This document shows positions 6,273-22,873 of a stretch of DNA of 34,564 nt, piece after piece; the first letter of the stretch is position 1, and each line of letters starts with the position of its first letter. The notes under the pieces are model-generated. The model made no database searches. It saw only the letters and a program-made list of their open reading frames with translations, and was not told the origin of the DNA. The stretch comes from a virus. The stretch spans positions 1 to 34,564 of IMG/VR virus record IMGVR_UViG_3300044940_000069. One strand, written 5' to 3'. Made by a program: the position numbers and the translations under genes.

Positions 6273-6737
6273 ATGGAGACCACAAAGGTAGTAAAAGGTA
6301 TCCCGACTGACCCGGATGTGCGCCTGCTGCTGGCGCGCTATGGGGTGCCAGCCGAGGGCTGGCTGATCGCGCATAGGGAGCTCGAGGAAGTGCTCGGCGT
6401 CGATCGGCGGTCGCACCGGTACGGCACCGTGATCGCCGCGTGGCGCAAGAGGCTGCAAGACGAGCACAACGTGGTGCTGATCGCTGTCCCGGGCGTCGGC
6501 TACAAGGTCGGTACGCCAGACGATCGAGTGGAGCACGGCTCGCGCCGCATCCGCACTGGCCAGCGCATCACCCGCCGCGCGTATCGAGTGATCGGGACCA
6601 CGGACCTGGCGCGCGCGTCAGAGCCTAACCGCAAGCAGGCCGAGCGCGATCTCGCGGTCGCGCGGGCGATCATCGCGGCCGCGCAGGCCGAGGCCAAGCG
6701 CTTCCGGGCCGTGCTGCCTGGGCCTGATGAGGAGTAA
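6273..6737 (+). CDS. Small phage protein with winged-helix-like N-terminus
   Basis: This 154-residue basic protein starts at ATG 6273 after GGAG at 6261-6264. The first 75 residues (LLARYGVPAEGWLIAHREL, then HRYGTVIAAWRKRL and VLIAVPGVGYKV) have the helix-helix-hairpin order of a small winged-helix domain common in phage early proteins. The rest is basic and helical (QRITRRAYRVI; AVARAIIAAAQAEAKR). A DNA-binding role is plausible but not shown. It is the first gene after the second GGCNN array, and its stop overlaps a short leader ORF as TAATG. Confidence 0.6.
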   Translation: METTKVVKGIPTDPDVRLLLARYGVPAEGWLIAHRELEEVLGVDRRSHRYGTVIAAWRKRLQDEHNVVLIAVPGVGYKVGTPDDRVEHGSRRIRTGQRITRRAYRVIGTTDLARASEPNRKQAERDLAVARAIIAAAQAEAKRFRAVLPGPDEE

Positions 6738-6835
6738 TGTTTACACACATTTACACACAAGCCGACGGGATGGGGGTAATATCTTCTCGCAGCCGGGGAT
6801 TGGCCCCGGCTCGAGAAGAAGGAGACAACACATGA
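6737..6835 (+). CDS. Possible 32-residue leader peptide
   Basis: ATG 6737 overlaps the preceding stop (TAATG), has GAGGAG just upstream, and runs 32 codons to a TGA at 6833-6835 that overlaps the next gene's start as ATGA. The ORF covers a long perfect hairpin at 6782-6819, so translating it would disrupt that hairpin. This is the arrangement of a coupled or attenuating leader. The peptide (MFTHIYTQADGMGV...) matches nothing I know. It may be fortuitous. Confidence 0.35.
   Translation: MFTHIYTQADGMGVISSRSRGLAPAREEGDNT
6740..6759 (+). repeat. Tandem 10-bp repeat TTTACACACA
   Basis: TTTACACACA occurs twice in direct tandem (6740-6749 and 6750-6759) in the gap before the HEAT-like gene. A related TTACACATATTTAC occurs at 1747-1760, also at an operon junction. 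TTTACA resembles a -35 hexamer, but the only -10-like match (TAATAT, 6777-6782) is 21 bases from the nearer copy. An operator is as likely as a promoter. Confidence 0.4.
6782..6819 (+). promoter_or_regulatory. 16-bp hairpin abutting the ribosome-binding site of the HEAT-like gene
   Basis: TCTTCTCG (6782-6789) pairs with CGAGAAGA (6812-6819), and AGCCGGGG (6791-6798) pairs with CCCCGGCT (6804-6811). This gives a 16-bp stem with one bulged C (6790) and the loop ATTGG. The 3' foot touches the AAGGAG at 6819-6824 used by ATG 6832. There is no T-run, so it is unlikely to be a simple terminator. Translational control, RNA protection or a protein site are the likely roles. Confidence 0.7.
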
Positions 6836-7971
6836 AAGCCAATACGGTCGCTACGGCGCTCGCGTCCGCGAGCCTAGAGGCGCGTGTCGATGCCGTCCGG
6901 CGGCTCGACCCCGCCGCGCACGCCGCCGTGCTCGCCACGGCGGCGGTTGAGGACCCGTCGCCGTGGGTGCGACGGCTCGCCGTAGAGCGGCTGGACCAGG
7001 CCGCCTATGGCGACCTCCTCGCCCAGGTAGCAAGATCGGACCAGGACTGGCTGGTCCGCTTGGCGGCCGTCTGCCGCCTCGACGCCGCCGCCAACGCCAC
7101 CCTCCTCGCCAGGGTGGCGGAGGAGGACGCAGCCCCGTGCGTCCGCCAGGCCGCCGTCGAGAGACTCGACGGCGCCGCCCATGGCGGCCTCCTAGCCCAG
7201 GTGGCAGTGCAGGACGCGGACCCGGACGTCCGCGAGGTAGCCGTCAGGCGCCTGGACCCCGCCTCGCAGGGCGCGGTCCTCGCCCGAGCGGCGACTGAGG
7301 ACGCTTCCTGGGAGGTCCGCGAGGCCGCCGTCCTGCGCCTCGATCCGGAGGCGCACGGCGACCTCATCGCCCGTGTGGCGAGCGAGGACGCTTCCTGGGA
7401 GGTCCGGGCCGCCGCAGTACGGCGCCTCGATCCCGTCGCCAACGCCACCCTGCTCGCCAGGGTGGCCACGGAGGACCAGGACCTGTGCGTCCGCGAGACC
7501 GCCGCCAGGCGGCTCGACCCCGTCGAGCACTCTGACGTGCTCGCCAGGGTTGCCGCCTTGGACCCATCCCATTGGGTCCGAGCGGCAATAGTCGAGCTGC
7601 TAGACCCAGACTTGTATGTCTGGGTCCTAGCCCGGGCGGCGACCCGGGACCCGGACTGGCGGGTCCGCGAGGCCGCAGTCCTGCGCCTCGATCCGGAGGC
7701 GCATGGCTGGGTCCTCGCCAGGGCGGCCCTCTGGGACGATGCCGAGGAGGTCCGGGCCGCCGCCGTCGAGCGGCTGGACCCCGCCGCGCACGCCGCCGTG
7801 CTCGCCACGGCGGCTCTGGAAGACGCGGACCCTGGCATCCGCGAGGCCGCCGTCCTGCGCCTCAACCCCCTCACCCATGGCGAGGTCCTCGCCAGGGTGG
7901 CGGAGGAGGACCGTGTTCCTTGGGTTCGGGGCGCTGCGCAGCGGCGCCTCGAGGGCAGAGCCGGGCAATGA
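6832..7971 (+). CDS. HEAT/LRV-like repeat protein (twelve 29-residue repeats)
   Basis: This 379-residue protein is almost entirely 29-residue repeats with the consensus VREAAVxRLDPEAHGDVLARVAxED (shown in part). There are twelve full units and one partial C-terminal unit. The spacing and the VR..AV..LD and VLA.VA positions match HEAT-like or leucine-rich-variant solenoids, which form protein-binding (rarely nucleic-acid-binding) arcs. There is no signal peptide or enzyme domain. DNA of some units is nearly identical: units 3 and 7 and units 6 and 10 are related at exactly 348 bp (four units), and units 1 and 11 at 870 bp. This suggests recent block duplication or gene conversion. ATG 6832 follows AAGGAG and a long hairpin. 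The target is unknown; a host-protein adaptor or antidefence role is speculative. Confidence 0.85.
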   Translation: MKANTVATALASASLEARVDAVRRLDPAAHAAVLATAAVEDPSPWVRRLAVERLDQAAYGDLLAQVARSDQDWLVRLAAVCRLDAAANATLLARVAEEDAAPCVRQAAVERLDGAAHGGLLAQVAVQDADPDVREVAVRRLDPASQGAVLARAATEDASWEVREAAVLRLDPEAHGDLIARVASEDASWEVRAAAVRRLDPVANATLLARVATEDQDLCVRETAARRLDPVEHSDVLARVAALDPSHWVRAAIVELLDPDLYVWVLARAATRDPDWRVREAAVLRLDPEAHGWVLARAALWDDAEEVRAAAVERLDPAAHAAVLATAALEDADPGIREAAVLRLNPLTHGEVLARVAEEDRVPWVRGAAQRRLEGRAGQ

Positions 7972-10264: not shown

Positions 10265-10569
10265 ACGACAAAGACCTAGTTTCGCGCCTGCGCGCGATGG
10301 CGAACGACAAGAACACGGGCAAATATTCCAGCGGAGACTATTGGAATATTTGCGACGAGGCCGCCGATGAGATTGAGTGGCTTCGCAAGGCGCTCGGCAG
10401 CCGCGAAATGCGCGCGTCGCTCGAAGAGCTAAAGCAGATGCGCGCAGCGCTGCGCCGCGCAAAGGATCTATACGAGGTCATGAGCGAGCCTAATGCTGAG
10501 ACCTTCGCGAACGCACACAATGAGGCCGTGCGGGTGCTGAAAGAGGTGGCGCAATCTGTGCTGCGCTGA
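10261..10569 (+). CDS. Small early coiled-coil protein, paralogue of the upstream gene
   Basis: This 102-residue protein starts at ATG 10261, overlapping the upstream stop as ATGA. It shares the (N)LI/V-x-RLR opening and the DEAADEIE-x-LRKAL helix with the 91-residue protein before it, suggesting tandem duplication followed by divergence. The C-terminal half is a charged helix likely to form a coiled coil. Function unknown. It is the last gene of the early operon; a promoter-like element follows. Confidence 0.6.
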   Translation: MNDKDLVSRLRAMANDKNTGKYSSGDYWNICDEAADEIEWLRKALGSREMRASLEELKQMRAALRRAKDLYEVMSEPNAETFANAHNEAVRVLKEVAQSVLR

Positions 10570-16891: not shown

Positions 16892-18432
16892 TGACCCGCT
16901 CCGAGCGCAACGCGGCGTGGATCGAGCGACACTGCGTAGTGCCGGATGGTCGGTACGGCGGGCAGCTTGTCCGCTTGACACCGCATCAGCGCGAGTGGCT
17001 GCGGATGATCTACGATTCGCCGACGCGGCGGTTCATTCTGTCGATGGCTCGCAAGAATGCCAAGACCGCTTTTTCGGCGTTCTTGCTGTTGCTGCACCTC
17101 GTTGGGCCCGAATCGAAGCGAAACAGTGAGCTATATTCCGTTGCGATGAGCCGCGCGCAGGCGGCGATCATATTCCGCTATGCCTGCAAGATCATTCGCG
17201 GATCGCCGACGCTCAGGAAGTACATTCGCATTCGGGAAACGGCAAAGGAACTGTATTGCGAGGCGCGTGGGACGCTATATCGGGCATTATCGTCCGAAAG
17301 CAAGACCGCCTATGGCCTCAATCCGGCCCTGGTCATTCACGACGAACTCGGGCAGGTGCGTGGCCCGCGCCATGAGCTGTACGAGGCGATGGAGACCGCC
17401 TGTCAGGCGCAAGAAAATCCGCTGTCCATAATCATCTCGACGCAGGCTCGCACGGATGGCGACCTACTGTCTCTGCTGATTGACTCCGCTCTACGCGGTG
17501 ATGATCCCAGAACAAAGGTGGCGCTTTACGCTGCGCCGGAGGATGCGGACCCGTTCTCCGACGAGGCGATTGCGGCGGCAAACCCGCATATGCGGGTTTT
17601 CATGAATGTCGAGGAACTTCGCGCAATGGCAGAGGATGCAAAAAGAATGCCATCGCGCGAGAACGAGTATCGAAATCTGGTGCTGAATCAGCGCGTCAAC
17701 TTCCATTCACCGCTGGTTTCGCGCGCCGTGTGGAATGCCTGCTCCGATCCGCCAGACGAGGACGTTTTTGCTCGCGCCCCGGTATATCTCGGGGTGGACC
17801 TTTCGTCGCGCCTGGACCTGACCGCGCTGGCTATGGCAGCTCGAGATGGCGACGGCGTGTGGCACGTGCGCACGGAGTATTGGACGCCCGCCGCCACAAT
17901 TGAGGAGCGCGCGCGACGCGACAAGGCTCCGTATGACCTCTGGGTCAGCCAGGGCTACATCACGGCGACGCCAGGCAGCTCTGTCGAGTATGCTATGGTC
18001 GCCGAGCGCATCGCCGAGCTGTGCGATCAGTACGACGTCCGCATCATCGCGTGTGACCGATGGCGGATGGACGAGCTTCAGGCGCTGGGGAATACTCTTG
18101 GGTTTGCCGGAGTGATGAAGCCATTCGGGCAGGGTTATCGGGACATGACGCCGGCGCTTGAGTACGTCGAGGCGTGCCTGCTCGAGCACAAGGTAAGACA
18201 TGGCGGGCATCCGGTATTGCGCATGTGCGCCGCAAACGCTACCGTGGTGACGAATGTCACTGGTCAACGCAAGCTGGACAAACTCAAGGCGTCTGGCCGC
18301 ATTGATGGTATGCTCGCGCTGGTGATGGCGATGCAGGTCGGCGTGACCGACATGGGTCGAGAGGTATTCCGGGCCGATGACTACATCGACATCGACGTTC
18401 CTGCGCGCGACGGAGGGCGGACGTGGCACTAG
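16891..18432 (+). CDS. Large terminase subunit (TerL), HK97-type
   Basis: This 513-residue ATPase and nuclease packages the genome. The N-terminal ATPase has a Walker A of the form MARKNAKT (52-59; an alanine variant of the usual RKNGKT) and Walker B LVIHDE (147-152). The RNase H-like nuclease shows acidic residues in GVDLS (D303), CDRW (D389) and the IDGM segment (D472). The family matches the Terminase_1 group seen in HK97, which cuts at cohesive ends, so cos packaging is expected. It starts at ATG 16891 overlapping TerS and overlaps the portal gene by ten bases. Confidence 0.95.
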   Translation: MTRSERNAAWIERHCVVPDGRYGGQLVRLTPHQREWLRMIYDSPTRRFILSMARKNAKTAFSAFLLLLHLVGPESKRNSELYSVAMSRAQAAIIFRYACKIIRGSPTLRKYIRIRETAKELYCEARGTLYRALSSESKTAYGLNPALVIHDELGQVRGPRHELYEAMETACQAQENPLSIIISTQARTDGDLLSLLIDSALRGDDPRTKVALYAAPEDADPFSDEAIAAANPHMRVFMNVEELRAMAEDAKRMPSRENEYRNLVLNQRVNFHSPLVSRAVWNACSDPPDEDVFARAPVYLGVDLSSRLDLTALAMAARDGDGVWHVRTEYWTPAATIEERARRDKAPYDLWVSQGYITATPGSSVEYAMVAERIAELCDQYDVRIIACDRWRMDELQALGNTLGFAGVMKPFGQGYRDMTPALEYVEACLLEHKVRHGGHPVLRMCAANATVVTNVTGQRKLDKLKASGRIDGMLALVMAMQVGVTDMGREVFRADDYIDIDVPARDGGRTWH

Positions 18433-19631
18433 ACTTGTGGCACAGGCTGGGGCGGTGGTTTGGCGGCGGCGGCCCGCGCGTGGTGCAAGGGCCGCAGCGC
18501 GGCGAGCCTGCCGGCCTAGTCGCTCCGCTGGCCCAGGCCGTAACCTGGGATACCGCGATGCAGGTATCCGCGTGGTGGGCGTGCGTGCGGCTGCTTACGG
18601 AGACCTGCGCCACCTTGCCGCTGAGGCTGCTGGATCTGCGCGGCGGGTATCCGCGCAGGGACGACGACGATCCGGCGATTCGGTTGCTGCGCAATAAGCC
18701 AAACGCTATTCACGACCGAATCCAATTCTTCGAGATTCTGTTTCTGAACCTCGTAACCAACGGGAATGCTTACGCTCGCGTATATCGACGCGAGGACGGA
18801 AGCGTATATTCTTTGGTGCCGATGCTTGCTGCGCAAACCGAGCCTGAACTGGTCGGGAATACCTTGCGATACCGGTGGAGCGATGGCGTCAATGTCGCAT
18901 ATCTGGCGCAAGAATCTGTTATGCACGTAAAGCTGTTTGGCAACGGTATTGTAGGGCTTTCGCCGCTGGCTTATGCTGCGCATGCGCTTGGTATTGCGCA
19001 GGCCGAAGCGCGGCAAGTATCCAACGTTTACCGAAAAGGTATGCGCCCAGCTGGCGTGCTAATGGTCGATGCGAAGCTCGACAAAGAGCAGCGAAAGCAA
19101 ATCCGTGAATCGTTTCGTGACCTAGTCGAGGAAAATGACGGAAACGAGCTTGTGGTGCTCGATCGGTTCATGAAATACGAGGCCACTTCGCTTTCGCCAG
19201 CCGACGCCGAACTGCTGCAATCGCGGCGCTTTTCAGTGCAGGATATTGCGAGGTTTCACGGGATCAACTCGATTTTCATCAATGACGGCTCGCAATCTAC
19301 TACGTGGGGAAGCGGTATTGAGCAGCTAATGGACGGGGCATATAAGCTCACGTTCCGGCCGTTATTGGAGCGCATGGAGCTGGCGCTGAAACTCGCAATG
19401 TTTCCGCCGGAAAGGTGGGACGAGGTGGAGTTCCGGTTTGACTTCGACGAGATCACGCGCATGAATCCCATGCAGCGCGCCCAGACCGCGCGCGAGCAGA
19501 TCCACTCGGGGCAGCGCACCCCGAATGAAGTGCGAGCGCTTGACGGCTTTCCCCCGTTGCCGGGTGGTGATACACTCATGATCCAGAGCGCCACACGGCC
19601 TATTACCGAGGCGCAGGAGGCTACGATATGA
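18423..19631 (+). CDS. HK97-type portal protein
   Basis: This 402-residue portal would form the dodecameric DNA channel at the capsid vertex. The segments SAWWACVRLLTETCATLPL, NLVTNGNAYARVYR and VYRKGMRPAGVLMVD, with the late FDFDEITRMNPMQRAQTAREQIHSG, are typical of the HK97 portal family. GTG 18423 follows a GGAGG site. It overlaps TerL upstream and the protease downstream (ATGA). Confidence 0.95.
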   Translation: MALDLWHRLGRWFGGGGPRVVQGPQRGEPAGLVAPLAQAVTWDTAMQVSAWWACVRLLTETCATLPLRLLDLRGGYPRRDDDDPAIRLLRNKPNAIHDRIQFFEILFLNLVTNGNAYARVYRREDGSVYSLVPMLAAQTEPELVGNTLRYRWSDGVNVAYLAQESVMHVKLFGNGIVGLSPLAYAAHALGIAQAEARQVSNVYRKGMRPAGVLMVDAKLDKEQRKQIRESFRDLVEENDGNELVVLDRFMKYEATSLSPADAELLQSRRFSVQDIARFHGINSIFINDGSQSTTWGSGIEQLMDGAYKLTFRPLLERMELALKLAMFPPERWDEVEFRFDFDEITRMNPMQRAQTAREQIHSGQRTPNEVRALDGFPPLPGGDTLMIQSATRPITEAQEATI

Positions 19632-20299
19632 AGCGATATACGTCGGCACCTATTGCGCGCGACGACGCAAAGTTCAAGTTCGTCATGGCGGAAAACACGG
19701 TCCGAATCAGCGGCTACGCCAGCGTGTTCGGCGTGTTAGACGCGCACGGCGATATTGTGGACCGTGGCGCTTTCGCTGGGTGGCTGGCGACCGGCCAGAA
19801 AATCCCGCTGCGTTACGAGCACCAGCTACCCAATATAGGGCTGGTGACGTATGCGGAGGAGGACGACTACGGTTTGCGCTTCGAGGCCGAGCTGACGCCG
19901 GGGCATTCTGTGGCGGCGGATGTCGCTGCCGAGCTGCGGCATGGCACGGTAACTGGCGTGAGCTTTGGGGCGTTCTGGGATCGCAAGTCAGTGCGCGAGG
20001 CTCCGGATGGGCGCCACTTGACCGCCATCGAGCCGTTCGAGATCAGTCTGACGTCGACGCCTGCCAATAAAGCGGCGCGAATCGCGGACGTGAAGTCCGC
20101 GCTGGAAGAGGCCGAGAGCCTCGCAGAGATTGAGGCGGTGCTGCGTGATGCTGGCACCTTTTCGCGAGCGGAGGCCACGGCGCTGGTCTCCAAGATCCGT
20201 ACCATCGTTCGCGGCGAGCGCGTCACGAAGGCGGAAACGCAGGAAATCATCGCGGCGATCAATGCCGCATTCGATAGATATCTGAGGAGTTCGCCATGA
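19628..20299 (+). CDS. HK97-type prohead protease
   Basis: This 223-residue serine protease (U35 family) would cut capsid and scaffold during head maturation. The conserved pair is H65 in LRYEHQ and S112 in TGVSFGAF, followed by FEISLTSTPAN. The length suits the family. The last 70 residues are charged helices that may target the prohead. It overlaps portal and capsid genes as ATGA. Confidence 0.92.
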   Translation: MKRYTSAPIARDDAKFKFVMAENTVRISGYASVFGVLDAHGDIVDRGAFAGWLATGQKIPLRYEHQLPNIGLVTYAEEDDYGLRFEAELTPGHSVAADVAAELRHGTVTGVSFGAFWDRKSVREAPDGRHLTAIEPFEISLTSTPANKAARIADVKSALEEAESLAEIEAVLRDAGTFSRAEATALVSKIRTIVRGERVTKAETQEIIAAINAAFDRYLRSSP

Positions 20300-21480
20300 G
20301 CGAGGAAATCACGAAGACCATCGCCGATGGTCTTGAGCGCATCAGTGCGCAGTTCAAGTCGGCTATTGAAAAGCTCGAGGGGCAAGTGCAGGAAAATGGC
20401 ACAGCCTCGAAGGAAATCCGCGCTGAGGTCCATGCGCTGGCCGAGCAGTACAAATCGCTGCGCGCCCAGATGACGGAGATCGAAAAGCGCGGCGCGCATT
20501 ATGCAGCCGGCGCGGATATGCCGATGTCCTGGGGGCAGCAGTTTGTCGGTTCCGAGCAGTACAAGGCCGCTGCGAGCGATCCGAACTTTCGCGGCCGCGT
20601 CGCGGTCGGTGTGCGCGGGTCGGCGCTTTTCAAGGCCACCGTGACGAGCACCGGCAATACGGTATTGCCTGATCAGAGGCAAGGCGTTATTCCCGGATCG
20701 GTGTATCCGAAGACCGTACGCGAGCTGATTCCGGTCGTGCCGGTGTCGTCAAATAGTATCGAGACCATTCGGGAATCGAGCTGGACGAACAACGCGGCAG
20801 AGCAGAACGAGGCCCTCACTGGCGGACTGCCTGGCGCGAAACCTGAGAGCACGATCAGCTTCGAGTCCGTGGCTGTGACGATCCGCACCGTGGCTCACCA
20901 TATCGCTGTGTCGAGCCAGCTGATCAGCGACTCGGCAGCCATCGCAGCCTACATCGACATGCGGCTGCGGGACGGCTTGGCTGACAGAATCGAGCAGCAG
21001 ATTATTGCCGGCAACGGCACCGCGCCAAATCTCGCTGGCCTGGAAACTCAAGCGGGCGTTGCGTTGACCGACGTTAACGACTCGATTATCGACACGGCCA
21101 ATCTGGCCATCTGGACGCTGTGGCAGAACGGGTTCGCGGCAGATGCGATCATCGTCAATCCGCTGGACTGGTCGGCTGTCGAAAGACTGCGTGAAGGCGC
21201 GAACACCGGCATGTACTTGTTTGGCCCGCCTGGTACCGTCGCAGGTCCGCAGCTCTTTAGGGTGCCGGTTATCCCCTCGCGGTGGGTCACGCAGGGCGAG
21301 ATGGGCGTCTGCGCGCTCCGGCAGGCGGTTGTGTTGTTTGACAGGCAAGCGGCCAGCGTCGAGATGGGCTACGTCAATGACGACTTTGTGCGCAATCGCA
21401 TCACGATCCGCGCAGAGGAGCGTCTGGCGCTGTCTGTCGACCGGCCGCAGGGCATTGCCTGGGGCACCTGGAACACCTAA
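20296..21480 (+). CDS. Major capsid protein, HK97 fold
   Basis: This 394-residue protein has an N-terminal coiled-coil delta domain of about 100 residues acting as internal scaffold, presumably removed by the protease. The HK97-fold core follows: TLPD-like VLPDQRQGVIP, then ISFESVAVTIRTVAHHIAVSSQLISDSAAIAAYI (quoted in parts) and IVNPLDWSAVERLRE. The C-terminal FVRNRITIRAEERLALSVDRPQ is the typical end. It starts at ATG 20296 overlapping the protease. There is no separate scaffold gene, as expected when the delta domain serves that role. Confidence 0.95.
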   Translation: MSEEITKTIADGLERISAQFKSAIEKLEGQVQENGTASKEIRAEVHALAEQYKSLRAQMTEIEKRGAHYAAGADMPMSWGQQFVGSEQYKAAASDPNFRGRVAVGVRGSALFKATVTSTGNTVLPDQRQGVIPGSVYPKTVRELIPVVPVSSNSIETIRESSWTNNAAEQNEALTGGLPGAKPESTISFESVAVTIRTVAHHIAVSSQLISDSAAIAAYIDMRLRDGLADRIEQQIIAGNGTAPNLAGLETQAGVALTDVNDSIIDTANLAIWTLWQNGFAADAIIVNPLDWSAVERLREGANTGMYLFGPPGTVAGPQLFRVPVIPSRWVTQGEMGVCALRQAVVLFDRQAASVEMGYVNDDFVRNRITIRAEERLALSVDRPQGIAWGTWNT

Positions 21481-21494
21481 CGGGTGATCCGGTG

Positions 21495-22094
21495 ATGTGG
21501 GCTGGTGCCACTGTCGTCTGCATCGCCAGCGGGCCATCGCTGTCGATGGATGACGTAGCGCTTGTCTACACGTGGCGGCGCGCTCGGTCTCACGGGCGCG
21601 CCGTCATCGTGTGCAACAGCACCTACATGGCCGCGCCGTGGGCTGACGTAATGGTTGCGCAGGATCTAGGCTGGTGGCAGGTGCTAGGTGAGGACGTGGT
21701 GCGGCGGTTTGCCGGCGAAAAGCTGTCTGGGTGTGAGCCGCCGCGAGCAGTGGCCCATGCCGTCCGGCGCGCCGATGTGTCGGTGCGCAGCGCATCGTCG
21801 CTCACTGGCGGCATGGCGATCGCGCTGGCTGCGGAGCGCGGAGCGTCGCGCGTGTTGCTGCTCGGGTACGATTGTGCTGTGAAGTACATCGATGGCGTCC
21901 GGCAGGCGCACTGGCATGGGGCGCATCCGCGACCGCTCGGCGATGCGGGCAGCGTGGAGCGGTTTGACGCGCGGCTGCTCAAGCTGGCGCGCGAGCTGGC
22001 GGCATCGCGGCCAAACTGCAAGATCATCAATGTTTCACGTGAAACACAATGCACGGCTTTTGAGCGTGGCGTGCTGGAGGAGGCTCTCGCATGA
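21495..22094 (+). CDS. MptE/DUF115-like phage protein carrying a parS site
   Basis: This 199-residue protein resembles a phage family related to MptE/DUF115 proteins (nucleotide-sugar or pterin-type transferases). Segments include VVCIASGPSLS, CNSTYMAAPWADVMVAQDLGWW, the GGMAIALAAERGASRVLLLGYD core and an INVSRET end followed by AFERGVLEEAL. The substrate is unknown; a sugar-related step feeding the adjacent glycosyltransferase is plausible. It starts at ATG 21495 (GTG 21492 is the alternative) and overlaps the glycosyltransferase as ATGA. The codons for NVSRET form a perfect parS palindrome. Confidence 0.65.
   Translation: MWAGATVVCIASGPSLSMDDVALVYTWRRARSHGRAVIVCNSTYMAAPWADVMVAQDLGWWQVLGEDVVRRFAGEKLSGCEPPRAVAHAVRRADVSVRSASSLTGGMAIALAAERGASRVLLLGYDCAVKYIDGVRQAHWHGAHPRPLGDAGSVERFDARLLKLARELAASRPNCKIINVSRETQCTAFERGVLEEALA
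22031..22046. promoter_or_regulatory. Perfect parS-like site (ParB binding sequence)
   Basis: TGTTTCACGTGAAACA is a perfect 16-bp palindrome and equals the classic chromosomal parS sequence bound by ParB CTPases in most bacteria. It falls in the codons GTT TCA CGT GAA ACA of the MptE-like gene. Several of these codons are AT-ending choices unlike the gene's usual GC-ending ones. No second full copy and no parA or parB gene was found in the window. Confidence 0.8.
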
Positions 22095-22873
22095 TCATCG
22101 TCACGCCTACCGGTGGCAGGCCAGAGGCTTTTGCCTTGTGCGTCGGGCACATGATCAGGCAGACCTACGTCGGCGAGGTCGACTGGGTCATCACACATGA
22201 CGTGGACATGCCCGAGCTGTCCGCGACCGACGTGCTGCCGAGTCACTGGCGCGTGCATCCCGTGCGCGCGCCGTGGACGTGGGTCGCTGGGATGAGCACG
22301 CAGGCGGCGCTGCTGGCGCTCGGGCTGAGGCGCGCGATGGAGCACGGAGCAGGCGCGCGTCCCGTGCTGGTCATCGAGGACGACGACTACTACCCACCGC
22401 AGTATCTGGTGAGCATGGCGGACGGGCTGCGCAAGGTGTGGCCCGAGTGCGCAGCAGTCGGTTACATGCGCGCGACCTATTATCACGTTCGCGCGCGGTG
22501 CTGGAAGGCGATGCACAACATCACGCATGCGAGCCTGTGCGAGACAGCAGTGATCGGCCGTGCTGTGCATGAGCTGCTGCGGATCTGCGACGAGCGCGCG
22601 CGGAATCCGCTCCGCAAGGGCTTCATCGACATTGACCTGTGGAATCGCATGCACGATATACGCCGCAAGGGCATCGCCTACCTGATGGATCGGGTACCTG
22701 GTGCCCGGCCGATCGGCATCAAGGGCATGCCTGGGCGGCCTGGCATCGGCAGCGGGCATCGACCGTCAGGCCGGTGGACGCCTGACCATGATCTATCCTG
22801 GCTGCGCCAGCATATCGGTGCGGAGGACGCCGAGGCATATCGGAGGTTCGGCACGGAGGCTCCATGTATCTGA
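22091..22873 (+). CDS. GT-A glycosyltransferase-like protein
   Basis: This 260-residue protein looks like a GT-A (family 2-type) glycosyltransferase. It opens with the nucleotide-binding strand MIIVTPTGGRPEAFALC, and the metal-binding acidic cluster EDDDYYPPQYL is at 96-106. The C-terminal part is basic with many aromatic residues. It would transfer a sugar, perhaps to virion or host surface components; the acceptor is unknown. It is coupled to the MptE-like gene by ATGA and overlaps the connector gene by ten bases. Confidence 0.75.
   Translation: MIIVTPTGGRPEAFALCVGHMIRQTYVGEVDWVITHDVDMPELSATDVLPSHWRVHPVRAPWTWVAGMSTQAALLALGLRRAMEHGAGARPVLVIEDDDYYPPQYLVSMADGLRKVWPECAAVGYMRATYYHVRARCWKAMHNITHASLCETAVIGRAVHELLRICDERARNPLRKGFIDIDLWNRMHDIRRKGIAYLMDRVPGARPIGIKGMPGRPGIGSGHRPSGRWTPDHDLSWLRQHIGAEDAEAYRRFGTEAPCI

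Follow-up and report, generated by a model that had tools for sequence, protein, structure and literature searches.

Use of a bacterial chromosome segregation protein by a phage has a precedent in phi29, which relies on the host Spo0J (ParB) protein for entrapment of its genome in spores (Meijer et al. 2005, EMBO J 24:3647, as cited in PMC9437464). The phi29 genome (L419, NC_011048) has four copies of the parS variant TGTTTCACGTGGAACA, at positions 10445, 15903, 17243 and 18760; genes 10 and 15 each contain one of these copies. In its relatives B103 and Goe1, gene 15 carries the perfect palindrome at the corresponding position. A sequence-only reading of the DNA analyzed here knew of no described phage system built on a host-type parS alone, and in this it was mistaken, as phi29 and host Spo0J are such a case in the account cited by PMC9437464. 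A second related system is SGI1, which carries mimics of the parS of the IncC plasmid ParABS that stabilise SGI1 and expel the helper (PMC10954446).

The window, by which we mean the whole stretch of DNA analyzed, consists of one virus record, 34,564 bases long (IMGVR_UViG_3300044940_000069). Just as the sequence-only reading had noted, it contains the exact chromosomal parS, TGTTTCACGTGAAACA, in a gene of the structural region, the ORF next after the major capsid gene within a module ordered terminase-portal-protease-capsid-connector (Table 1). The window resembles phi29 in having a host-type parS together with no ParA/ParB reported (phi29, which relies on the host ParB) or found (window). 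However, it has one site, a perfect palindrome, rather than four TGTTTCACGTGGAACA sites, and it belongs to another lineage, with a D3/HK97-like head module, a lambda-O-like replication gene and no link to sporulation. The window parS would work like the phi29 sites, and its membership of the phi29 type is putative. As with SGI1, the window would represent a mobile element without partition genes of its own that has parS and depends on the ParB of another replicon, the latter being predicted for the window. Unlike the window, which is known from sequence, SGI1 is an integrative element with two direct-repeat copies that uses a plasmid ParB, as shown experimentally. Phage P1 and the cluster A mycobacteriophages also have parS on phage DNA, but there the parS belongs to a ParA/ParB system that the phage itself encodes (PMC7157519).

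Table 1. Positions of the parS site and of the surrounding head module genes in the window.
Feature	Position	Strand	Remarks
Portal protein	18423..19631	+	PF04860; head module around parS
Prohead protease	19628..20299	+	PF04586; head module around parS
Major capsid protein	20296..21480	+	PF05065, E 3e-33; phrog_10; directly upstream of the 200-aa ORF
200-aa protein carrying parS	21492..22094	+	PHROG 4603; homologue of Pseudomonas phage D3 orf7 and P1 PmgO
parS, perfect 16-bp palindrome TGTTTCACGTGAAACA	22031..22046		Exact match to bacterial chromosomal parS; putative host-ParB loading site
260-aa ORF	22091..22873	+	Directly downstream of the 200-aa ORF; without family match

The virus record, which is possibly incomplete, gave no match to ParB (PF02195), and about 27 of its ORFs, when scanned against Pfam, revealed neither ParA nor ParB, in agreement with the sequence-only reading. 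A complete parABS of the phage's own was ruled out, as the neighbors of parS are head genes and no ParA/ParB was found. A first genome scan returned no relatives, and a profile scan returned homologues at no more than 46% identity, mostly from Beta- and Gammaproteobacteria, which are too distant to name the host. The record has no tRNAs. A 414-aa HEAT-repeat protein is encoded in the early region (window 6727-7971).

The number of TGTTTCACGTGAAACA sites expected in the window is 8e-6 under a uniform model, 5.7e-7 under a first-order Markov model and 4.2e-7 under a second-order one, for a chance expectation of about 1e-6 to 1e-5. A mismatch scan found no second parS-like site at up to four mismatches anywhere else in the window. 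The site is read in frame as codons 180-185 of the 200-aa ORF (AAT GTT TCA CGT GAA ACA, NVSRET). Under the phage's own codon usage, the probability of these codons given the peptide is 2.3e-6, and GC3 in the ORF is 0.78 over codons 1-179 versus 0.18 over codons 180-190. These codons are very unusual for their own gene and run against its codon bias, a contrary choice that had been noticed in the sequence-only reading and that these figures now quantify. The family to which the protein belongs, PHROG 4603, is labeled either "alpha-2,3-sialyltransferase" or head morphogenesis.

The site could be a coincidence of coding, in which the six codons that happen to spell a conserved N-[CAV]-[ST]-R-E-T motif also make up parS, perhaps as part of a stretch acquired from lower-GC DNA. 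The position does fall in a motif, N-[C56/A47/V6]-[S/T]-R-x-T, that is conserved C-terminally across 109 homologues, and the NVSRET peptide thus appears to be protein-driven rather than arbitrary. This makes a parS-like string locally likelier, because the peptide belongs to a conserved family motif. In other phages the usual setting of a coding parS is an inserted disordered peptide; that setting was rejected here, the peptide being a family motif. The low GC3 also extends past parS to codon 190, and the region around the gene is highly mosaic in comparisons of the window with its relatives. The best single argument for coincidence is a near miss in an unrelated homologue at 42% identity (L288), which has the same NVSRET peptide and TGTTTCCCGTGAAACA, with one mismatch that breaks the CACGTG core; this may be either a coincidence or a decayed site. 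Even so, the conserved motif is not enough to explain the exact parS easily. Valine at position 181 is rare (6 of 109 homologues), with the GTT codon there in three of the 109, and only the window and one close relative, L122, have the exact parS spelling. The low probability of the codons given the peptide likewise counts against coincidence, which we consider rather unlikely overall.

Close homologues of the 200-aa gene were found in five other IMG/VR contigs (L122-L126), ParB being absent from all five and no further site with up to four mismatches being present in these fragments. L122 has the exact parS of the window and is 100% identical to it over about 20.1-22.3 kb, which includes the capsid gene and parS, versus 84-98% elsewhere. 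The block at ~20100-22300 therefore looks to be a recent exchange, given full identity there against 2-16% difference outside. In L123 a single base change in parS yields TGTTTCACGTGGAACA, with an E-to-G amino acid change, so that both site and peptide (NVSRGT) are identical to those in phi29 gene 15. L124 and L125 have a two-mismatch form, TGCTTCACGTGAAACG, and L126 has CGCGACGCGCACGACG at this position and no site. The comparison of the NVSRET codons in relatives that had been proposed earlier thus gave a divided answer, with an exact match in the window and L122 and a phage-type variant in L123, but two mismatches in L124/L125 and none of the site in L126. Among these few relatives, the parS-competent state is found in the window, L122 and L123, is degraded in L124/L125 and is absent in L126; the site is therefore not kept across close relatives, and the degraded and missing copies favor coincidence. 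Within the 16 bp, L123 and L124 do not clearly exceed the 83-85% background identity of the gene. On the other side, the sole change in L123 gives the second common phage parS variant, which argues against coincidence. L123 would appear to have moved to that other common form, and L124/L125 to have left the set, because the former occurs in 147 isolated-phage records and the latter in none.

These numbers come from the INPHARED collection of isolated phages, in which exact 16-mers were counted by blastn with a 30-letter query padded with N, an E-value of 8 serving as a counting device only. Some records in the collection are duplicates and others form clumps (Listeria alone accounts for 87), and the counts are to be read with this in mind: TGTTTCACGTGAAACA was found in 286 records at 824 strand-places, or 412 sites, versus one record for a composition-matched scrambled palindrome, TTGTCATCGATGACAA. 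The TGTTTCACGTGGAACA variant of L123 and phi29 was present in 147 records at 213 sites; Pseudomonas phages account for 36 of these records and Stenotrophomonas phages for 7. The L288 form, TGTTTCCCGTGAAACA, occurred in four records, and TGCTTCACGTGAAACG, the form of L124/L125, had zero matches. In Pseudomonas aeruginosa, ParB binds perfect palindromes best, those with one mismatch slightly less and those with two weakly, an intact CACGTG core being important (PMC4368675), and the phage counts of the parS variants agree with this binding order.

The exact site in Listeria phages is spread over the 87 records, many of them P100-like, and in P100 it lies at the start of gp159 (L421 1001-1016). 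Among the parS matches listed from INPHARED there were no Escherichia, Salmonella or Klebsiella phages, 28 records standing under unlisted names. These three hosts are not known to have a chromosomal ParABS. For that reason, enterobacterial phages could serve as a natural control.

The isolated-phage sites were often intergenic, or in or near genes of DNA-binding proteins. This would suit an explanation in which the palindrome is the target of another protein, such as a phage or host regulator that recognizes the CACGTG core, and is only parS-like. However, the enrichment is confined to the 16-bp string and its known parS variant, across phages whose hosts differ widely, and the two-mismatch form falls to zero. 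In the window itself, the site lies inside the head operon, 45 bp before the start codon of the 260-aa ORF (22091), with no evident promoter role. We consider such a target very improbable.

A comparable excess of parS was observed in IMG/VR, where the exact site was found in at least 120 stretches versus 34 and 7 for two scrambled palindromes in complete control scans. When G/C (S-S) flanks were required, a complete scan found 59 stretches versus 2 and 0 for the flanked controls. Perhaps about 2,400 stretches in IMG/VR have parS, an estimate with a wide error that is based on 3 of the 59 flanked stretches being among the first 120 matches listed. A PF02195 match at E <= 0.001 was present in 9 of 100 parS-bearing records, leaving 91 without. 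No open frame of 60 codons covered 27% of the parS loci versus 0% of control loci, and the coding sites read mostly as VSRET, often within variable or disordered stretches. None of 176 IMG/VR parS loci lay in a PHROG 4603-type gene, which counts against a ParB site in the window. These 176 loci formed 99 clusters, the largest (48 loci) being a clade related to the isolates DSL-LC04, HTVC027P and 023Pt_psg01. Pelagibacter phage HTVC027P (L225) has a near-perfect parS, CGTTTCACGTGAAACA, between two genes (6413-6428).

Conservation of parS was apparent in terL relatives, of which 80 were fetched by protein, blind to parS; 36 of these were at least 74% identical and had DNA upstream of the gene. 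In 11 of the 36 close relatives, the 150 bp preceding terL contained the exact parS, with strongly diverged flanks, and one more had it with a single mismatch, whereas 40 scrambled palindromes had no match in any of the 80. The terL clade, a different phage clade from that of the window, gives the clearest sign of selection on parS. Across an aquatic phage clade (L336-L413), the exact site lies 34-158 bp ahead of terL in many members, the flanks being diverged, and two (L349 and L350) additionally have TGTTCCACGTGGAACA adjoining parS. Contamination with host chromosomes was considered as a source of the IMG/VR excess and is not sufficient, since isolated phages are equally enriched and the terL clade keeps the site.

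The window was noticed for its parS, and the question is therefore what fraction of parS-bearing viral contigs have the site by chance. Among GC-rich contigs whose only site lies in a long coding frame, the complete scan gave 19 with flanked parS versus 4 and 1 with the unflanked controls in complete scans; 10 were among the first 120 parS matches listed. By this measure, chance sites would make up a small minority of parS-bearing viral contigs. That parS is many-fold commoner in viral contigs than matched palindromes, GC-rich coding DNA included, leaves few chance sites and argues further against a coincidence of coding in the window.

We estimate a probability of roughly two in three that the parS of the window is a functional loading site for the ParB of the host, the binding being predicted. 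This value, and the lower standing of coincidence, result from discounting the base rate for clumping within clades, the protein motif and the degraded relatives. In the larger set, the presence of parS without its reader protein in hundreds of unrelated phages is probably a borrowing of the host segregation protein and not a coincidence. The recruitment of host ParB that the sequence-only reading had proposed is thus the best explanation, based on the excess and conservation of parS in ParB-less phages, and is putative for this phage.

Under host-ParB loading, the host's own ParB would load at the phage parS as a CTP clamp, slide onto the DNA beside it and bring host-coupled partners to the phage DNA, namely ParA-driven movement and SMC loading. 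Chromosomal ParB spreads about 10 kb in B. subtilis and about 2 kb in Caulobacter around a single parS, also at ectopic sites (PMC5815017), and a phage bearing a single parS would therefore be expected to collect ParB in a cell that has ParABS. The benefit, if phi29 is a guide, would most likely be positioning or partition of phage DNA when infection is slow or non-lytic; titration of ParB ranks second. A related possibility, which is a sub-case of ParB binding and overlaps with the loading-site explanation, is that replicated phage DNA is a decoy that titrates host ParB or is segregated instead of the chromosome, disabling host segregation. Plasmid-borne parS can divert segregation and cost viability, with reductions in Caulobacter of up to about 1000-fold that track ParB affinity (PMC5815017); the SGI1 mimics, in their effects on SGI1 and its helper plasmid, and phages with up to six parS are also in keeping with a decoy. 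However, the window has one site only, a lytic phage would have little to gain from blocking segregation in a cell that is to be lysed, and none of this support is specific to the window phage, so that we regard a decoy role as distinctly unlikely here.

With somewhat less confidence than for the window site itself, we also think it likely that piracy of the host centromere is a general phage strategy. In this, orphan host-type parS sites in tailed, ssDNA and filamentous phages of many bacterial phyla, often encoded as VSRET in structural genes, would load host ParB and SMC, and the window phage would be one member, with parS embedded in a conserved protein motif. If so, bacterial chromosome segregation would be a common phage host factor well beyond phi29 spore entrapment, and it would become testable whether ParB/SMC position, compact, partition or expose foreign DNA. 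Islands of contrary codons in phage genes would be explained, and phages that use host ParB could be recognized simply by the presence of parS in their sequence. The literature searched contained no description of widespread orphan parS in phages; the breadth of its occurrence looks new, while use of a host-type parS as such was already known from phi29.

Several of the parS-bearing phages have additional features. The filamentous bajarodino virus 6 (Inoviridae; L417, PQ006149) has six perfect parS in 5,910 bases, several just past gene ends, and many Microviridae records have one parS. The site or the phi29 variant lies inside the terminal repeats of Vibrio phage phi 3 (left repeat) and of Pseudomonas phages phiPsa374, phiPsa300 and phiPsa267. 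Isolated phages that have parS and workable hosts include Bacillus phages B103, Goe1 and Chedec 11 and Ruegeria phage DSS3P8.
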